20,889 nt of DNA. Source: a virus. A program made the position numbers and the translations under genes. Position 1 is the stretch's first letter, and the number at the start of each line of letters is the position of its first letter. Below, piece after piece: positions 7,569 to 17,041 of the stretch. The notes under the pieces were generated by a model that did no database searches, was not told the DNA's origin, and saw nothing but the letters and a program-made list of their open reading frames with translations. The stretch covers positions 1-20,889 of the IMG/VR virus record IMGVR_UViG_3300042691_033917; one strand, given 5' to 3'.

Positions 7569-7614
7569 ATAGGTTAACACCTATGTTTGTGCTTCCCTCA
7601 TATGATTCGGGAAG
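7569..7614 (-). promoter_or_regulatory. Two hairpins in the leader of the dCTP deaminase operon
   Basis: ATAGGT (7569-7574) and ACCTAT (7579-7584) form a perfect 6-bp stem with a TAAC loop, directly beside the AAGGAG of dCTP deaminase. A second stem, CTTCCC (7592-7597) with GGGAAG (7609-7614), lies just upstream. They could be operators or mRNA structures that control translation or stability. No known riboswitch class is recognised. Confidence 0.4.
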
Positions 7615-7781
7615 GGATGATATCAAAACAAAAACAGAAAAAGGGTAAAAAGAAAAAATGGTGATGCTTTATGTTCCCATGTTTTTAGTGTTTTGTCAAG
7701 TGTTTTATTTGTAACAGTTTGTAACAATTGTTATTTATTAATAACTTACATATTAATTTAAAATATTTTTATGTTTGGGTA
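7615..7781. other. AT-rich divergent intergenic region
   Basis: No gene is seen here on either strand. The stretch separates the minus-strand dcd operon from the plus-strand RNA promoter. Both promoters should lie here or at its edges. A consensus -35 (TTGACA, minus strand, 7699-7694) is present, but no good -10 lies 16-18 bases from it. Runs of A/T around 7735-7770 are typical of bendable promoter DNA. Confidence 0.4.
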
Positions 7782-7810
7782 TTTACAAAAATAAAAAAGT
7801 ATGAAATAAT
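7782..7810 (+). promoter_or_regulatory. Sigma70-type promoter of the structured RNA
   Basis: TTTACA (7782-7787, 5/6 match to -35) is followed after exactly 17 bases by AATAAT (7805-7810, 5/6 match to -10). Transcription would start near 7817, just before the first pairing elements of the RNA. This is among the best promoters in the window. Confidence 0.65.
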
Positions 7811-8175
7811 GTTCTTACAGTTGAGAGTGATGTCTACTAACTGAGGCCAAGCCTGATAGGTGCTGTCACATAATTGGCCATTGATTGTGAGTGCCGAACA
7901 GTGGCAATAAATTACAGGGCATAAAAGGATCTCATGGCCTAAGTGCGGATAGGAACCTTACATAGTATAACGGCAAGACTGTAGCCGCACTCGCCGTGAC
8001 AGCTTGGAGAGACAAGCAATTAATTTGATGGTTTAGAACTGATAGGGTGATCCGGACACGTGGGAACGTTGCACTTAGAAACCCACTAAGCGAATAAATG
8101 GGGAAAGATTCCGGACGAAGCATAGATGTTCTCTATGTGGTGCAAAAGCCAACAGAAATGTGGTGTCCTAGAGGT

Positions 8176-8289
8176 TCTAATTTGTTTAGGGTCTATAGTT
8201 CGATAATCAGAATACCGTGCCGATGACGATCGGGAAGCGCACGGAGACGCTGGGTTGTGTGTCCAGCTAGACTCTAATTTGTTTAGGGT
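8176..8289 (+). repeat. Exact 17-bp direct repeat joining the two tRNA-like domains (copies 8176-8192 and 8273-8289)
   Basis: TCTAATTTGTTTAGGGT occurs at 8176-8192 and again at 8273-8289, 97 bases apart. Each copy covers an 11-base linker plus the first bases of a cloverleaf, so the unit of duplication is linker plus cloverleaf. This suggests tandem duplication followed by divergence of the cloverleaf interior while the linker stayed identical. Confidence 0.75.
8189..8274 (+). ncRNA. tRNA-like cloverleaf domain 1 inside the structured RNA
   Basis: The stems follow tRNA order and spacing. Acceptor: GGGTCTA 8189-8195 with TAGACTC 8268-8274 (one G-U). Then T and A as positions 8 and 9. D-arm: GTTC/GAAT with an 8-base loop (8198-8213). 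An extended arm sits in the anticodon position: CCGTGC 8215-8220 with GCACGG 8239-8244, plus an inner CGAT/ATCG. A 4-base variable region follows, then T-stem GCTGG/CCAGC (8249-8267). The T-loop is GTTGTGTGT (9 bases), not TTCRANY, and no CCA follows. Sixteen of the first 26 bases match the phage's own tRNA-Trp, including GTCTATAG. Probably a tRNA-derived structural module, not a working tRNA. Confidence 0.5.
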
Positions 8290-8363
8290 TTGTAGCTTAA
8301 TGTAAAGCCCTGCATTGTTGGCAGGAAGATGTTGGTAGGGCTGTAGTTAATCCAACCAAACCC
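8286..8363 (+). ncRNA. tRNA-like cloverleaf domain 2 inside the structured RNA
   Basis: Acceptor: GGGTTTG 8286-8292 with CAAACCC 8357-8363, perfect; with flanking bases 8282-8285 and 8364-8367 it reaches 11 bp. T and A occupy positions 8 and 9. D-arm: GCTT/AAGC with a 6-base loop (8295-8308). Anticodon-like arm: CCTGC ATTGTTG GCAGG (8309-8325), exactly 5 bp and 7 bases; formally the triplet would read TGT, but the loop ends TTG and lacks the usual purine at 37. Variable region: AAGAT. T-stem: GTTGG/CCAAC (8331-8356), enclosing a 16-base loop instead of the 7-base T-loop. No CCA end. AGCCCT 8306-8311 could pair with AGGGCT 8337-8342 in that loop, which would make a pseudoknot. Likely a degenerate or repurposed tRNA. 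Confidence 0.5.
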
Positions 8364-8421
8364 TAAAAGTGGGTTTTAAATTAAAGGTACACTGCAACTC
8401 AGATCCGTTAGCAACCTTCGA

Positions 8422-8446
8422 GCAGGTGTGAGGCCTGCATTATTTT
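8422..8446 (+). terminator. Terminator-like hairpin at the 3' end of the structured RNA
   Basis: GCAGG (8422-8426) and CCTGC (8434-8438) form a 5-bp GC-rich stem with a 7-base loop, followed by ATTATTTT. The stem is short for an intrinsic terminator, so partial read-through into the gene at 8461 is likely. Confidence 0.4.
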
Positions 8447-8460
8447 AAGAGGTTAGTAAA

Positions 8461-8697
8461 ATGAAATATACTCGTATCAGACTTGTTGTTATTGAACCCG
8501 GTGAGCATAACAAAGGTGAGACAGGGATAAGAGTTATTGATCATAAGCACCCTTCTGCTGTTAGTGAAGATGAGGGCAAGATGCGAGATTATTACAATTC
8601 TGTACTGAGAGACTATAGAAATGAAGGGTACACAATAGTCTCTCATTCAATGAAAGAAATCACCAGAGAAGAATATTATACCAATAATTACTTTTAG
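8461..8697 (+). CDS. Hypothetical protein upstream of the primase-helicase (78 aa)
   Basis: ATG 8461 follows AAGAGG at 8447-8452. The product begins MKYTRIRLVVIEPGEHNKGE, is beta-rich at first and then helical and charged (GKMRDYYNSVLRDYRNEGY). Its stop lies 11 bases before the primase-helicase start, so the two are probably co-transcribed, possibly by read-through from the RNA promoter. It is not recognised. Confidence 0.6.
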   Translation: MKYTRIRLVVIEPGEHNKGETGIRVIDHKHPSAVSEDEGKMRDYYNSVLRDYRNEGYTIVSHSMKEITREEYYTNNYF

Positions 8698-8708
8698 TAA
8701 GGTAAATC

Positions 8709-11345
8709 ATGAGTGATGCTTCTGTTATTAGCAAAACTAAATGTCCTGCTTGTGCTGCCAAAGGGCTAGATTATGATGACGATAATCTTATTAACTATGA
8801 CAATGGCACATCACATTGCTTTGCCTGTGGTTATGATGATCAAGGTAAACAGTCTGCTCCAGTTTCTGAATTAATAGCAGGACCTCTTGCAGATTTATCT
8901 CGTACTCGTGGTATTAAAAAGGAAGCGACAGAAAAATATCGAGTAAGAGAAAAAATTTATACAGGTTATGTTTCTAAGAAGCAATATGTCACAAATGAAT
9001 TGATTTATATTTTCCCTTACACAGAGAATGGTGTGGTTGTAGCACAAAAATTAAGAAGTGCTGTTAATAAGAAAGTCATGGGGAAAAGAGGTAAGACTAA
9101 AGGCAATAGGTTTTTTGGACAAGATAAATTTGAACCTTCAAAGCAGTGGCCTATTATAATAGTGGCCGGTGAGTTTGATGCACTTGCCTCTTATCAAATG
9201 ACAGGTGTCCCCACAGTTAGTTTACCTGATGGTATTGATTCATGTGTCAGAGTAATTACTGAAAATATGACATGGCTTTCTCAATGGAAAGAGGTGATTA
9301 TATCATTCGACAATTCACCAAATGAGCAGAGTTATGTAGAAAAAGTAATTCCACTGTTTGAGCCGGGATTTGCCAGAAACATGACATTTGAATTGAATGA
9401 TGCTAATGACATGCTCAGGGCGAACAAAACTGAAGAGTATAAAAAGGCGCTGTGGAATGCTCAAAAGATTAAGCCTAAGTCTGTTGTTTCCTTTCTTGAT
9501 ATCATTGATGAATTATGCGTACAAGTTGAATGGGGATCGCCCTGGCCGTGGAAATACATGGATTTGGTGACTTATGGCATAAGAAAGAAAGAAGTTACAC
9601 TAATTAGCGCCGATACTGGGATAGGTAAAGAGCAGCCTATGTCTGCTTTGATTTCTACACCAAATGGATGGAAAGAGATGGGGTCTTTGCGGGTTGGGGA
9701 CATAATTCATGGCCAGACAGGGACAACTAAAGTTGTAAAAATCTTCCCCCAAGGGGTTAAGCCTGTTTATAGATTGGTATTATCTGACGGTAGATCCTGC
9801 GAAGCGGGCTTAGAGCACTTGTGGAAAACTTATTCTCGAGATCAGATTTATAAAAATAAACGTGATGGAAAAGATTTACATTCAATAAGAACCACAGCGC
9901 AGATGTTGGACATGCATTTGGATAATATTTATTTACCTAACTGCAATGCAGTTGAATACAGTGATAAAAATTTAATTATCCCCCCCTACTCATTGGGTGT
10001 TTTAATTGGTGATGGATGTTTGACATGCCCGGGTTTATCTATTAGTTCATCAGAGATAGATATTATTGAAGCAGTTTCAAGTGATTTGGGGTTGGCATTT
10101 ACTAAAAACCCACTAAATTTTACTTATACTTTTTTGACGAAAGGGGCCAATACAGTTTATAAGAAATATATTAATGATATAGGATTGAATGTTAAGTCTC
10201 ATGAAAAGTTTATCCCTAATGAATATTTGCAGAGCAGTGTTAATCAAAGGCTGTCCCTATTACAGGGGTTATTTGATACTGATGGTTCTGTGTCACCTTC
10301 GGGTTCATTTTCATATAGCACTACTAGCTCCAGATTAGCGAAAGATGTTGTTGAGTTGGCTAGGAGTCTAGGGATAATTACTAAAATAAAAAAAGAAAAC
10401 AGAAATAAATACAAATCTGGTGTTTGTTTCATTATTCGTTTTATTACTAATAAAATCATTTTTACATCAAGGAAGCACGCTCAACGGTATAAAAGATATA
10501 CTGATCGAATTAAAAACAGGTCTTATAGTCATGACCACGTTTCGATTAAGTCAATTGAATATATTCGAGATGAGGAATCACAGTGTATTGTAGTGGACAG
10601 TCCTGACCATTTATATTTAACTAATGATTATATAGTTACTCACAATACAGCATGGGCTTACAATGTTGTTGCTAATTGGCTAATGAATGGTCAAGCTTGT
10701 GCTCACTTTGATCTGGAGAGATCTAAGCAGGAGTCTGGTCAAAGATCATTGGGTTTAATAATGGGTGAACCAATTCACTTGCCTGATTATGCTGATTTTA
10801 ATAAAGAGAGGATACGGCAAAAGGCCGAAGAAATTGGTGATTCTATGCACCTTTACGATGTTAGTTCAGGGCTGTTGGATTTAGAGTCTGTATTATCCAG
10901 TATGAGATATTTAAGGAAAGCACACAATGTGACACTGTTTGTTATTGATAATCTTTTAGCTCTTGCGTCTTATATTGGCGGTACAGGTGCTTCACATGAA
11001 TTTGCTAGTAAAGCCATAGGCAGGGTCAAACATGTCACTAATGAACTGGATGTCCATACAATTGTATTAAACCATGTTATTAAGGATATCACAGGCGATG
11101 ACGCAAATAATTGGCAAACTGGAAGACTACCAACTATTGATCACATTTATGGTGGTAAAGCTACGGCTGCGTTGGCCGACAATCTCTTGGTGGCTGCTAG
11201 GGATGTGCAGAATTCTGACCCAAGTATTAGAGAGACATTATTAATACAACCATTGAAATCTAAGTTTCATTCAAAAGAAACAGGAAAAGTGTTCAGGAAT
11301 TATTTAGATCATAAAACCGGGAGGTTAGTTGAGTTTAAGGGTTGA
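8709..11345 (+). CDS. T7-type primase-helicase interrupted by an intein
   Basis: The 878-residue precursor contains a 539-residue extein, close in length to T7 gp4. An N-terminal zinc ribbon (C12, C15, C37, C40) and a TOPRIM region (AGEFDA with E155; D201 in SFDNSP) form the primase half. The helicase half holds Walker A GIGK-T split by the intein after K307, Walker B-like LFVIDNLLALAS, and later motifs (TIVLNHVIKD, GGKATAALADN). It would unwind the fork and may prime lagging-strand synthesis. Oddly, the second Asp of the TOPRIM DxD is Ser203, so primase activity may be lost or altered. Function depends on intein splicing, because Walker A is broken until then. AAGG sits upstream of ATG 8709. 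Confidence 0.9.
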   Translation: MSDASVISKTKCPACAAKGLDYDDDNLINYDNGTSHCFACGYDDQGKQSAPVSELIAGPLADLSRTRGIKKEATEKYRVREKIYTGYVSKKQYVTNELIYIFPYTENGVVVAQKLRSAVNKKVMGKRGKTKGNRFFGQDKFEPSKQWPIIIVAGEFDALASYQMTGVPTVSLPDGIDSCVRVITENMTWLSQWKEVIISFDNSPNEQSYVEKVIPLFEPGFARNMTFELNDANDMLRANKTEEYKKALWNAQKIKPKSVVSFLDIIDELCVQVEWGSPWPWKYMDLVTYGIRKKEVTLISADTGIGKEQPMSALISTPNGWKEMGSLRVGDIIHGQTGTTKVVKIFPQGVKPVYRLVLSDGRSCEAGLEHLWKTYSRDQIYKNKRDGKDLHSIRTTAQMLDMHLDNIYLPNCNAVEYSDKNLIIPPYSLGVLIGDGCLTCPGLSISSSEIDIIEAVSSDLGLAFTKNPLNFTYTFLTKGANTVYKKYINDIGLNVKSHEKFIPNEYLQSSVNQRLSLLQGLFDTDGSVSPSGSFSYSTTSSRLAKDVVELARSLGIITKIKKENRNKYKSGVCFIIRFITNKIIFTSRKHAQRYKRYTDRIKNRSYSHDHVSIKSIEYIRDEESQCIVVDSPDHLYLTNDYIVTHNTAWAYNVVANWLMNGQACAHFDLERSKQESGQRSLGLIMGEPIHLPDYADFNKERIRQKAEEIGDSMHLYDVSSGLLDLESVLSSMRYLRKAHNVTLFVIDNLLALASYIGGTGASHEFASKAIGRVKHVTNELDVHTIVLNHVIKDITGDDANNWQTGRLPTIDHIYGGKATAALADNLLVAARDVQNSDPSIRETLLIQPLKSKFHSKETGKVFRNYLDHKTGRLVEFKG
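9630..10646 (+). mobile_element. Class 3-like intein with LAGLIDADG homing endonuclease
   Basis: The 339-residue insert (precursor residues 308-646) lies between Lys and Thr of the helicase Walker A box; removing it restores GIGKT exactly. It starts EQPMSALISTPNGW, with no Cys or Ser nucleophile at position 1. It carries the WCT set of class 3 inteins: Trp372 in EHLWKT (block B), Cys626 in SQCIVVDSP (block F) and Thr644 in IVTHN (block G). It ends His-Asn followed by Thr+1. Two dodecapeptide motifs, LGVLIGDG (429-436) and LLQGLFDTDG (517-526), mark a DOD-type homing endonuclease with an acidic residue in each. It is expected to excise itself and to cut intein-less alleles at this site. Confidence 0.9.
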
Positions 11346-12206: not shown

Positions 12207-12282
12207 ATGTCTATAGCTCAATTGGTAGAGCAGCAGTCTCCAAAACTGTAGGTTGGGGGTTCGAATCCCTCTAGGCATACCA
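12207..12282 (+). tRNA. trnW: tRNA-Trp (anticodon CCA)
   Basis: A complete cloverleaf. Acceptor ATGTCTA/TAGGCAT with one U-G pair; T8 and A9; D-arm GCTC/GAGC with loop AATTGGTA; anticodon arm GCAGT CTCCAAA ACTGT with CCA at 34-36; variable AGGTT; T-arm GGGGG TTCGAAT CCCTC; A73 and an encoded CCA end. It reads UGG. UGA is used as a stop in this phage, so no recoding is implied. A phage tRNA-Trp may offset limiting or cleaved host tRNA. Confidence 0.95.
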
Positions 12283-14696: not shown

Positions 14697-14917
14697 TGAA
14701 GAAACCAAAAGATTTATTAATGTTAATAGCAGTGTTATTGGTAGGAGTAATATTAGGGTTACAAGTTAAAGTTGTTAGCGCAGAGAGAAGCCCTAAATTA
14801 ATAAAATGTTTGACAGATTGTGAAGATAAGTATTATAACGATGCGCATAATTATGGATTGGGAATTGCTCTTTATAAGCTAGATATTTGCCGTTCGCGTT
14901 GTTTTGGGGATGAATAA
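14696..14917 (+). CDS. Exported twin-CX3C peptide (73 aa)
   Basis: ATG 14696 overlaps the polymerase stop (TAATG), with GGAG (14684-14687) upstream; the in-frame ATG at 14678 lies before that site. Residues 1-29 form a signal peptide or anchor: KKPK, then LLMLIAVLLVGVILGL, then a VSA-type cleavage site. The mature part has two CX3C pairs (C38/C42 and C65/C69) joined by a helix-prone stretch. This layout folds elsewhere into a disulfide-stapled helical hairpin. The family is unknown. Position next to an exported metalloprotease suggests envelope function. Confidence 0.65.
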   Translation: MKKPKDLLMLIAVLLVGVILGLQVKVVSAERSPKLIKCLTDCEDKYYNDAHNYGLGIALYKLDICRSRCFGDE

Positions 14918-15387
14918 TGAAAGAATTAAAATTACTTATTGTTGCATTAATAGTGTTAATTGGTGCAATATTTTCATTTAACAAAGCTTTTGGGATGACA
15001 TTTAAACAAGCACAATCAATCTATTATCAAGTAGCACATAAAAATCTCTTTACCGTCCCGCCATTTAAATATGATCCTACATCTGATATTGATGCTTATT
15101 GGACTGGTTATTATGTTGTTGTTACTCAAGGATTATTAGACAGTGTTAGAAACAATAATGAAATGGCTGTTATATTAGGGCATGAATTGGGGCATTATCA
15201 ACAAGCGCATTGGAGTGATAGCAAAACAAATGAATTGTTAGCAGACAGATTAGGATTTACATTTGCAGTTAAGGCTGGATATAGTGGATGTAAAGGTATG
15301 AGATGGATCTTAAGAAATGGTTATGAGAACAGCGATCATCCTAGTGGTAGGGACAGATATAACAGATTGTGTGGGGGTAAGAGATAA
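14917..15387 (+). CDS. Membrane-anchored or secreted M48-like zinc metalloprotease
   Basis: 156 residues, start coupled to the previous stop (TAATG). Residues 5-26 are a hydrophobic signal or anchor (LLIVALIVLIGAIFSF). The catalytic HELGH at 89-93 provides two zinc ligands and the general-base Glu90. NELLAD at 105-110 supplies the third ligand Glu106, as in M48 peptidases. VVVTQGLL ahead of the motif is the usual substrate-edge strand. It would act outside the cytoplasm, perhaps on envelope proteins during lysis or exclusion; no substrate is indicated. A related protein is encoded at 16496-17041. Both are shorter than cellular M48 enzymes and lack their extra membrane helices. Confidence 0.8.
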   Translation: MKELKLLIVALIVLIGAIFSFNKAFGMTFKQAQSIYYQVAHKNLFTVPPFKYDPTSDIDAYWTGYYVVVTQGLLDSVRNNNEMAVILGHELGHYQQAHWSDSKTNELLADRLGFTFAVKAGYSGCKGMRWILRNGYENSDHPSGRDRYNRLCGGKR

Positions 15388-15567: not shown

Positions 15568-16506
15568 ATGCTTACAGGTATTTGTGAATCAGACGAACTA
15601 ATCATGGCTGCATGCACAGCAGTCAATAAGCATGGCTACAGGGTTGTAACATCTAAAGGTAATCTGTATATGCCTTTTAAGGACTTAAGAAAGCCAAGGT
15701 TGAAGAAACCATTGTTAGAATGGCTAGCCAAGAAGGGCAAGTCTCATTTGCAGATTGAAGAATATAACCAATGTGATAACTTAAATGGTGCTCTATGGCA
15801 GCTAAAGAAGACAATAGGGCGCTGGTACAGGTTAACAGGATGTGATATTATACAGTTTTGGTTAGGCCCGACAGATGGCTCTAATTTTAGATTTAAAAGT
15901 GCCGTAACATTGCCGTACAAAGGACACAGGAAAGAGAAGCCAGAAATATGGGGTGCTGTGAGAGAATATCTAATAAATGTGTATGGTGCTCAGGTTATAC
16001 ATGGATATGAATGTGACGATATTTTAGGTATGAATGGGGATAAATCGCCGACACCTGCAAACGTTTTGCCTCCACCTCCGGAGACTATCCTTATACATAA
16101 AGATAAAGACATATTTATGGTTCCGGGTTGGCATTTTAATACACAGACAGAGGAATTTGAATATGTTGACAGATTTGGCAAATTATGGCTTAATGATAGT
16201 GGAAAGCTTAAGGGCAGGGGTATAATGTTCTTCTATGCTCAATTATTGATGGGGGATGCTACAGATAATATACCTTCACTTAAGAAAGGTAAATATGGGG
16301 ATAAGACAGTATATAAACTATTAGCTGATTTGAAAACAGAAGAGGAATTATTAATGGCAGTTATGTACGAATATAAAAAAGTTATGGGGGATAATTGGAG
16401 AGAAAGATTATTAGAACAGGCAGATTTAGTTTGGATATGCCAAGAAAAGGGGGTTCATGGCAGCCATTATATTTTAGATAAACTAGGGGAACTTGATGTT
16501 AGATAA
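15568..16506 (+). CDS. 5'-3' exonuclease (FEN/T7 gp6-like)
   Basis: The 312-residue protein has acidic metal-binding clusters in FEN-family order: ESD at 7-9, YECDD (E148, D150, D151), HKDKD (D179, D181) and LLMGDATDNIPS (D230, D233). The last is followed by a helix-three-turn-helix (KKGKYGDKTVYKLL) that grips DNA. YKGHR at 117-121 matches the conserved helical-arch basic motif. It would remove RNA primers or 5' flaps and help degrade host DNA to nucleotides. A Pro-rich insert (PPPPET, about 168-173) lies between acidic clusters. It overlaps the next gene by 11 bases. Confidence 0.88.
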   Translation: MLTGICESDELIMAACTAVNKHGYRVVTSKGNLYMPFKDLRKPRLKKPLLEWLAKKGKSHLQIEEYNQCDNLNGALWQLKKTIGRWYRLTGCDIIQFWLGPTDGSNFRFKSAVTLPYKGHRKEKPEIWGAVREYLINVYGAQVIHGYECDDILGMNGDKSPTPANVLPPPPETILIHKDKDIFMVPGWHFNTQTEEFEYVDRFGKLWLNDSGKLKGRGIMFFYAQLLMGDATDNIPSLKKGKYGDKTVYKLLADLKTEEELLMAVMYEYKKVMGDNWRERLLEQADLVWICQEKGVHGSHYILDKLGELDVR

Positions 16507-17041
16507 AATAACTTATGTTGCACGTTTAGTGTTGTTGTTTTTAACTGGGGTGTTAGTAGGATTAATGTTAGCAGCATTGACCAGTGTTAAACAACATACC
16601 ACACAACTCACTTCCAAAGATGCATTAGAGATATTCAAGGAATTTAAGAAATATACAGGTGCTCCTGATATTATTCCCTCTTTATCCATTCAAGATGACA
16701 GTGTGGTTAACGCTTATGCATCCAGTAATGAGATTATTGTTACTACAGGAATGCTTAACTTTTGCAAGTCTAAAGATGAATTAGCAGCTATTATAGGCCA
16801 TGAAATGGGGCATGTTATTATGAACCATGTTAATGGAGCTAGGGCTGTTGATCAACGTCTGGATGAAGCTAATAGTGATAAGTTTGGTATTTACTTGATG
16901 CTTCGAGCCAATTATAACGTTTGTGATGCTAGAAAGATATGGCTGAGATTAAGAGAAGAAGAAGGGGATAATACGATAACCAAATCTCACCCTGATTATA
17001 GTTTTAGAGAATGGTCATTAACCTTTCCACAATGTGAATAA
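16496..17041 (+). CDS. Second membrane-anchored M48-like zinc metalloprotease
   Basis: ATG 16496 is preferred over the TTG at 16493, with AGGGG just upstream. 181 residues: N-terminal transmembrane segment 8-29 (VARLVLLFLTGVLVGLML), then a protease domain with IVTTGML, HEMGH (102-106, catalytic Glu103) and DEANSD with third ligand Glu124. The layout aligns with the protease at 14917 (shared 'VvTxGlL...GHExGH...E..sD+.G'). The two are divergent paralogues on either side of the exonuclease. The C-terminal part after the ligand (SHPDYSFREW) matches a SDHPSGRDRY stretch in the other copy. The role is unknown. Confidence 0.8.
   Translation: MLDKITYVARLVLLFLTGVLVGLMLAALTSVKQHTTQLTSKDALEIFKEFKKYTGAPDIIPSLSIQDDSVVNAYASSNEIIVTTGMLNFCKSKDELAAIIGHEMGHVIMNHVNGARAVDQRLDEANSDKFGIYLMLRANYNVCDARKIWLRLREEEGDNTITKSHPDYSFREWSLTFPQCE

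Follow-up and report, generated by a model that had tools for sequence, protein, structure and literature searches.

RNA plant viruses carry tRNA-like structures, a form of viral tRNA mimicry, and tRNA clusters are frequent in phages. Among the large non-coding RNAs of phages, the linker region of GOLLD sometimes contains real tRNAs (PMC12286853). The locus described here lies in a 20,889-base virus record of a metagenomic phage, the whole of which was analysed and is referred to as the window. Two consecutive cloverleaves with the junction spacing of tRNA occupy the 3′ end of the non-coding stretch from approximately 7817 to 8446. A promoter match and a terminator-like hairpin bound this stretch, so both cloverleaves probably belong to a single larger RNA.

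As judged from gene content, the replication module of the window is T7-like or Zobellviridae-like and comprises a dCTP deaminase on the minus strand together with primase-helicase, family A polymerase, exonuclease, nucleotide phosphatase and endolysin genes, and the proteins of the nearest relatives are approximately 30–37% identical to those of the window. An intein (approximately 9630 to 10650) interrupts the Walker A motif of the primase-helicase between GK and T, and Pfam assigns it a LAGLIDADG homing endonuclease domain. Neither Cys nor Ser stands at its first position, and its W, C and T positions suggest that it may be a class 3 intein. Two M48 metallopeptidase-like genes (14917 to 15387 and 16493 to 17041, Pfam) are also present.

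The leftward dCTP deaminase gene is separated from a rightward gene at 8461 by 900 bases without a credible gene. The rightward gene (8461 to 8697, 78 residues), directly 3′ of the putative terminator, had no match in PHROGs or Pfam. The AT-rich part from 7600 to 7810 ends in a putative sigma-70-like promoter (7782 to 7810, plus strand; TTTACA-17-AATAAT with TG before the −10), called by its consensus match alone (10/12) where 3.7 sites this good are expected in the region, and from this match an RNA start would be expected near 7817. From there the G+C content climbs to approximately 44%, compared with 29–38% in the flanks of 7817 to 8446, and no credible ORF was found in this stretch on either strand. 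It ends in a putative intrinsic terminator (GCAGGTGTGAGGCCTGC ATTATTTT; 8422 to 8446, plus strand) made up of a hairpin and a T-rich tail. We infer a transcription unit from the promoter and terminator matches, and the simplest reading is a single non-coding RNA of approximately 630 nt on the plus strand, from 7817 to about 8446, with a mildly low overall folding energy (z approximately −2).

The 3′ part of this putative RNA contains a 17-nt exact repeat, with the first copy (TCTAATTTGTTTAGGGT) at 8176 to 8192 and the second at 8273 to 8289, both on the plus strand, for which the chance expectation is 0.02 and which widens to 23 nt at 91% with a period of 97. An earlier note on this DNA had claimed both the exact repeat and its period, and had placed the same 11-base linker before each domain; the linker is indeed repeated, but the acceptor helices extend into it (10 and 11 bp) and leave only UUUG between the modules, the stretch from 8180 to 8367 running helix-UUUG-helix-UUUG-helix. 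Domain 1 (8186 to 8277, core 8189 to 8274, plus strand), recognised by the tRNA-spacing descriptor specified below, is predicted to consist of an acceptor-like helix of 10 bp (8186-8195/8268-8277), a D-like arm (8198-8201/8210-8213) with an 8-nt loop, a long bulged hairpin (8215-8244) in place of the anticodon arm, and a T-like arm of 5 bp (8249-8253/8263-8267) with a 9-nt loop, for which an alternative of 6 bp with a 7-nt loop is the minimum free energy form. Domain 2 (8282 to 8367, core 8286 to 8363, plus strand), recognised by the descriptor and by the Rfam tRNA model, has a predicted acceptor-like helix of 11 bp (8282-8292/8357-8367), a D arm (8295-8298/8305-8308) with a 6-nt loop, an anticodon arm (8309-8313/8321-8325) with the 7-nt loop AUUGUUG including U33, and a T stem of 5 bp (8331-8335/8352-8356) with a 16-nt loop; it retains U8, A9, A14, A15, A21 and U48. 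The acceptor pairs given previously (8189-8195/8268-8274 and 8286-8292/8357-8363), the T stems of 5 bp (9-base and 16-base loops) and the missing CCA were all found again; the anticodon-like arm of domain 1, however, is the long bulged hairpin and has no anticodon loop. In both domains pairing includes the base that follows the acceptor, and the absence of a free acceptor end speaks against work as a tRNA and for a built-in module.

The neutral descriptor was defined as a 7-bp acceptor, 2 nt, a 4-bp D stem, 0–1 nt, a 5-bp stem, 3–6 nt, a 5-bp T stem and 0 nt, with loop ranges that were widened after a first run had overlooked domain 1. On both strands of the window it gave three matches, namely domain 1, domain 2 and a tRNA-Trp gene, and T8 and A9, not demanded by the descriptor, are present in all three. 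Dinucleotide shuffles of 7817-8448 gave no match (0/10,000), and the tRNA spacing of the two tandem cloverleaves, noticed in the first reading as being in tRNA order with T8 and A9, is beyond chance. Applied to other loci, mostly phage DNA with a few bacterial contigs and approximately 5.8 Mb of strand in total, the descriptor recovered mainly real tRNAs and low-complexity DNA; cloverleaf matches in other loci, such as L123, were rejected as AT-rich chance. Each domain alone adopts the cloverleaf in minimum free energy folding. The descriptor was written for tRNA spacing because some three-arm junction also appears in 4% of shuffles, cloverleaf shape by itself being cheap; it is the tRNA junction spacing, and not the shape, that is the rare feature.

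Competing folds were also predicted. The strands of the acceptors can swap because these are duplicated, and the full-length minimum free energy fold does so at −188.6 kcal/mol, compared with −186.8 kcal/mol when both cloverleaves are enforced, a lead of 1.8 kcal/mol that is within model error. Prefixes ending at 8367 and 8380, taken as a proxy for folding during transcription, form both cloverleaves unconstrained. In domain 2, AGCCCU at 8306-8311 (D and anticodon stems) can pair with AGGGCU at 8337-8342 (long T loop), and the model favours this hairpin over the inner arms, giving the cloverleaf arms P of approximately 0.15; such a hairpin could serve as a switch. A further domain preceding the cloverleaves (8033 to 8180, plus strand) would be closed by 8033-8046/8167-8180, and its hairpin loop AAACCCA (8079-8085) is complementary to 8370-8376, just 3′ of domain 2. 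A long-range pseudoknot between 8079-8087 and 8368-8376 is possible, this 9-nt complement being by estimate not beyond chance in 630 nt.

The Rfam tRNA model covered the full length of domain 2 and scored it at 33.6 bits, where the cut-off is 29 (E 4.6e-5, counting all families). This match appears only with permissive filters and is lost under default filters; by its score domain 2 is a probable tRNA relative. The same check failed for domain 1, which gave no match at E up to 10, and its relatedness is deduced from identities that stay in register with tRNA-Trp and domain 2. The yardstick was a functional-looking tRNA-Trp(CCA) located outside the RNA at 12207 to 12282 (plus strand). When its first 26 bases were slid along the RNA, a comparison that makes no use of structure, the best register was 8189, the start of domain 1, with the 16/26 identities counted earlier, and the start of domain 2 (8286) tied for second. 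The in-register score was matched by 2/20,000 shuffles for domain 1 (26 bases) and by 7/20,000 for domain 2 (16 bases); register is what counts, since unrelated places elsewhere in the window also reach 16–17/26. End-to-end alignment of the two domains beats 1999/2000 shuffles and, without the first 10 nt, has a score reached by 23/2000, the alignment score being partly a consequence of pairing with the shared 5′ strand. In a structure-set alignment, on which the count depends, all 24 of the 24 compared stem pairs are intact in both copies (8 double changes, 2 single, 0 broken). Since the start of tRNA-Trp is matched in register at the beginning of both domains, they probably descend from a tRNA gene that was then duplicated in tandem. 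The tRNA model and the in-register identity support the proposal that these duplicated tRNA descendants form part of a larger putative RNA.

As read here, neither domain can be a working bacterial tRNA, because CCA, the T-loop motif (TTCRA) and the D-loop GG are missing from both, as is an anticodon loop from domain 1. By established tRNA biology, acceptor ends locked in helices of 10–11 bp would argue against RNase P cleavage, CCA addition and charging. ARAGORN at relaxed settings gave nonsense output on both strands and was discarded as evidence.

We see roughly an even chance that a duplicated former phage tRNA gene has become two modules of a separately transcribed phage RNA of approximately 630 nt. 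The gene would have been duplicated in tandem together with its linker, and both copies turned into modules of the larger RNA, whose separate transcription would start at a host-type promoter and stop at an intrinsic terminator. The tRNA fold would have been retained as a compact four-way junction and the translation parts lost, that is the CCA end, the T-loop motif, the D-loop GG and the anticodon loop of domain 1, and with its lengthened acceptor stem each module would form a closed strut, joined to the next by UUUG. We infer a structural role: most likely the cloverleaves serve a large phage RNA as closed building blocks.

A tRNA fold retained despite the lost translation parts would also suit a tRNA mimic, a decoy that binds a host tRNA-handling enzyme (defence nuclease, synthetase or modification enzyme) and so spares the real tRNAs, and U8, A9, A14, A15, A21 and U48, retained in domain 2, and its 7-nt loop with U33 point the same way. 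Hosts are on record as attacking tRNAs, to which phages respond with altered tRNAs, but the known phage answers are resistant tRNAs and not baits (PMC11455837). Domain 1, with its anticodon region replaced by a bulged hairpin, would serve poorly as bait for anticodon nucleases; neither domain has the elbow contacts between D-loop GG and T loop, the ends are buried in long helices, and we consider a decoy unlikely. That the domains are decaying tRNA genes, left over without function from a small tRNA cluster and transcribed as part of a leader, is rather improbable. The tRNA-Trp lies 3.8 kb away, phages frequently have such clusters and pseudogenes typically lose T loop and CCA, but decay would break stems, and every compared pair is intact in both copies despite many base changes, in helices that were even lengthened by linker bases. 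There is a slim chance that the cloverleaves are processing signals at which RNase P or RNase E would cut to separate parts of the transcript: acceptor and T stems stack gap-free in both domains, which is the shape of an RNase P substrate, but pairing runs across the expected cleavage site in both, and neither CCA nor a standard T loop is present. A DNA-level element, the folded strand of a replication origin between divergent operons, is highly improbable, for although the AT-rich divergent intergenic stretch 7600-7810 adjoins and the primase-helicase lies 250 nt downstream, in-register tRNA identity is not expected of an origin, and promoter and terminator matches frame the stretch as RNA.

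No Rfam family other than tRNA matched the RNA even at E 5, the GOLLD and ROOL models gave no match at the gathering cut-off or at E up to 5, and a tmRNA, with its alanine-identity tRNA-like end and tag reading frame, was found neither by ARAGORN nor by Rfam; a group I/II intron and RNase P RNA were rejected, being without Rfam support. In blastn searches of the region, phages matched in AT-rich promoter stretches alone and plasmids not at all, and single domains gave chance matches in phages. Exact linker, hairpin and repeat patterns gave chance matches in viral contigs, inside coding or unrelated DNA where checked, and in genome contigs, as judged by blastn alone. Among the matches listed for primase and polymerase relatives (all approximately 30% identical), the RNA was not matched by nhmmer or blastn, and 58 records searched for the RNA yielded no relative (best E 0.006, 22 nt). 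In the large non-coding gaps of five relatives, tRNA was the only family matched, apart from two sub-threshold microRNA-model matches. As the collections searched yielded no relative of the RNA among the matches listed, there is no between-phage covariation. Tandem tRNA-derived modules in a phage RNA are not described in the literature searched, which largely excludes subscription journals.

The case is known from one genome fragment, and a new class of large phage RNA that has adopted duplicated tRNA genes as building blocks is put forward as a tentative proposal, at well below even chances. If true, it would let one path to the large structured RNAs of phages be retraced; with both the ancestral tRNA gene and the successive changes still legible (duplication in tandem, translation parts lost, stem lengthened), the origin of GOLLD/ROOL-like RNAs would become testable, and the tRNA shape points to specific partners for testing.

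Like tmRNA, the predicted RNA has a tRNA-like part inside a larger RNA, but it has no charged end. With the tRNA-like structures of plant viruses it shares a tRNA-shaped part that is no tRNA in a viral RNA, whereas here these parts are internal and tandem, in a DNA phage, of likely tRNA-gene descent and without an acceptor end. Compared with tRNA itself (RF00005), stem order, junction spacing, U8 and A9 are alike in both domains and domain 2, under permissive filters, is above the family cut-off; both differ in lacking CCA, T-loop motif and D-loop GG, and domain 1 is below detection and has no anticodon loop. Nearest in kind appear to be GOLLD and ROOL, RNAs that assemble into homo-oligomers and are alike in setting and not in sequence: there is no sequence or covariance match to the RNA predicted here. 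The likeness lies in a large phage-borne non-coding RNA of elaborate predicted structure in a phage with tRNA genes (PMC12286853), and the difference in the tRNA-derived parts, which would here be non-functional and built in as modules.
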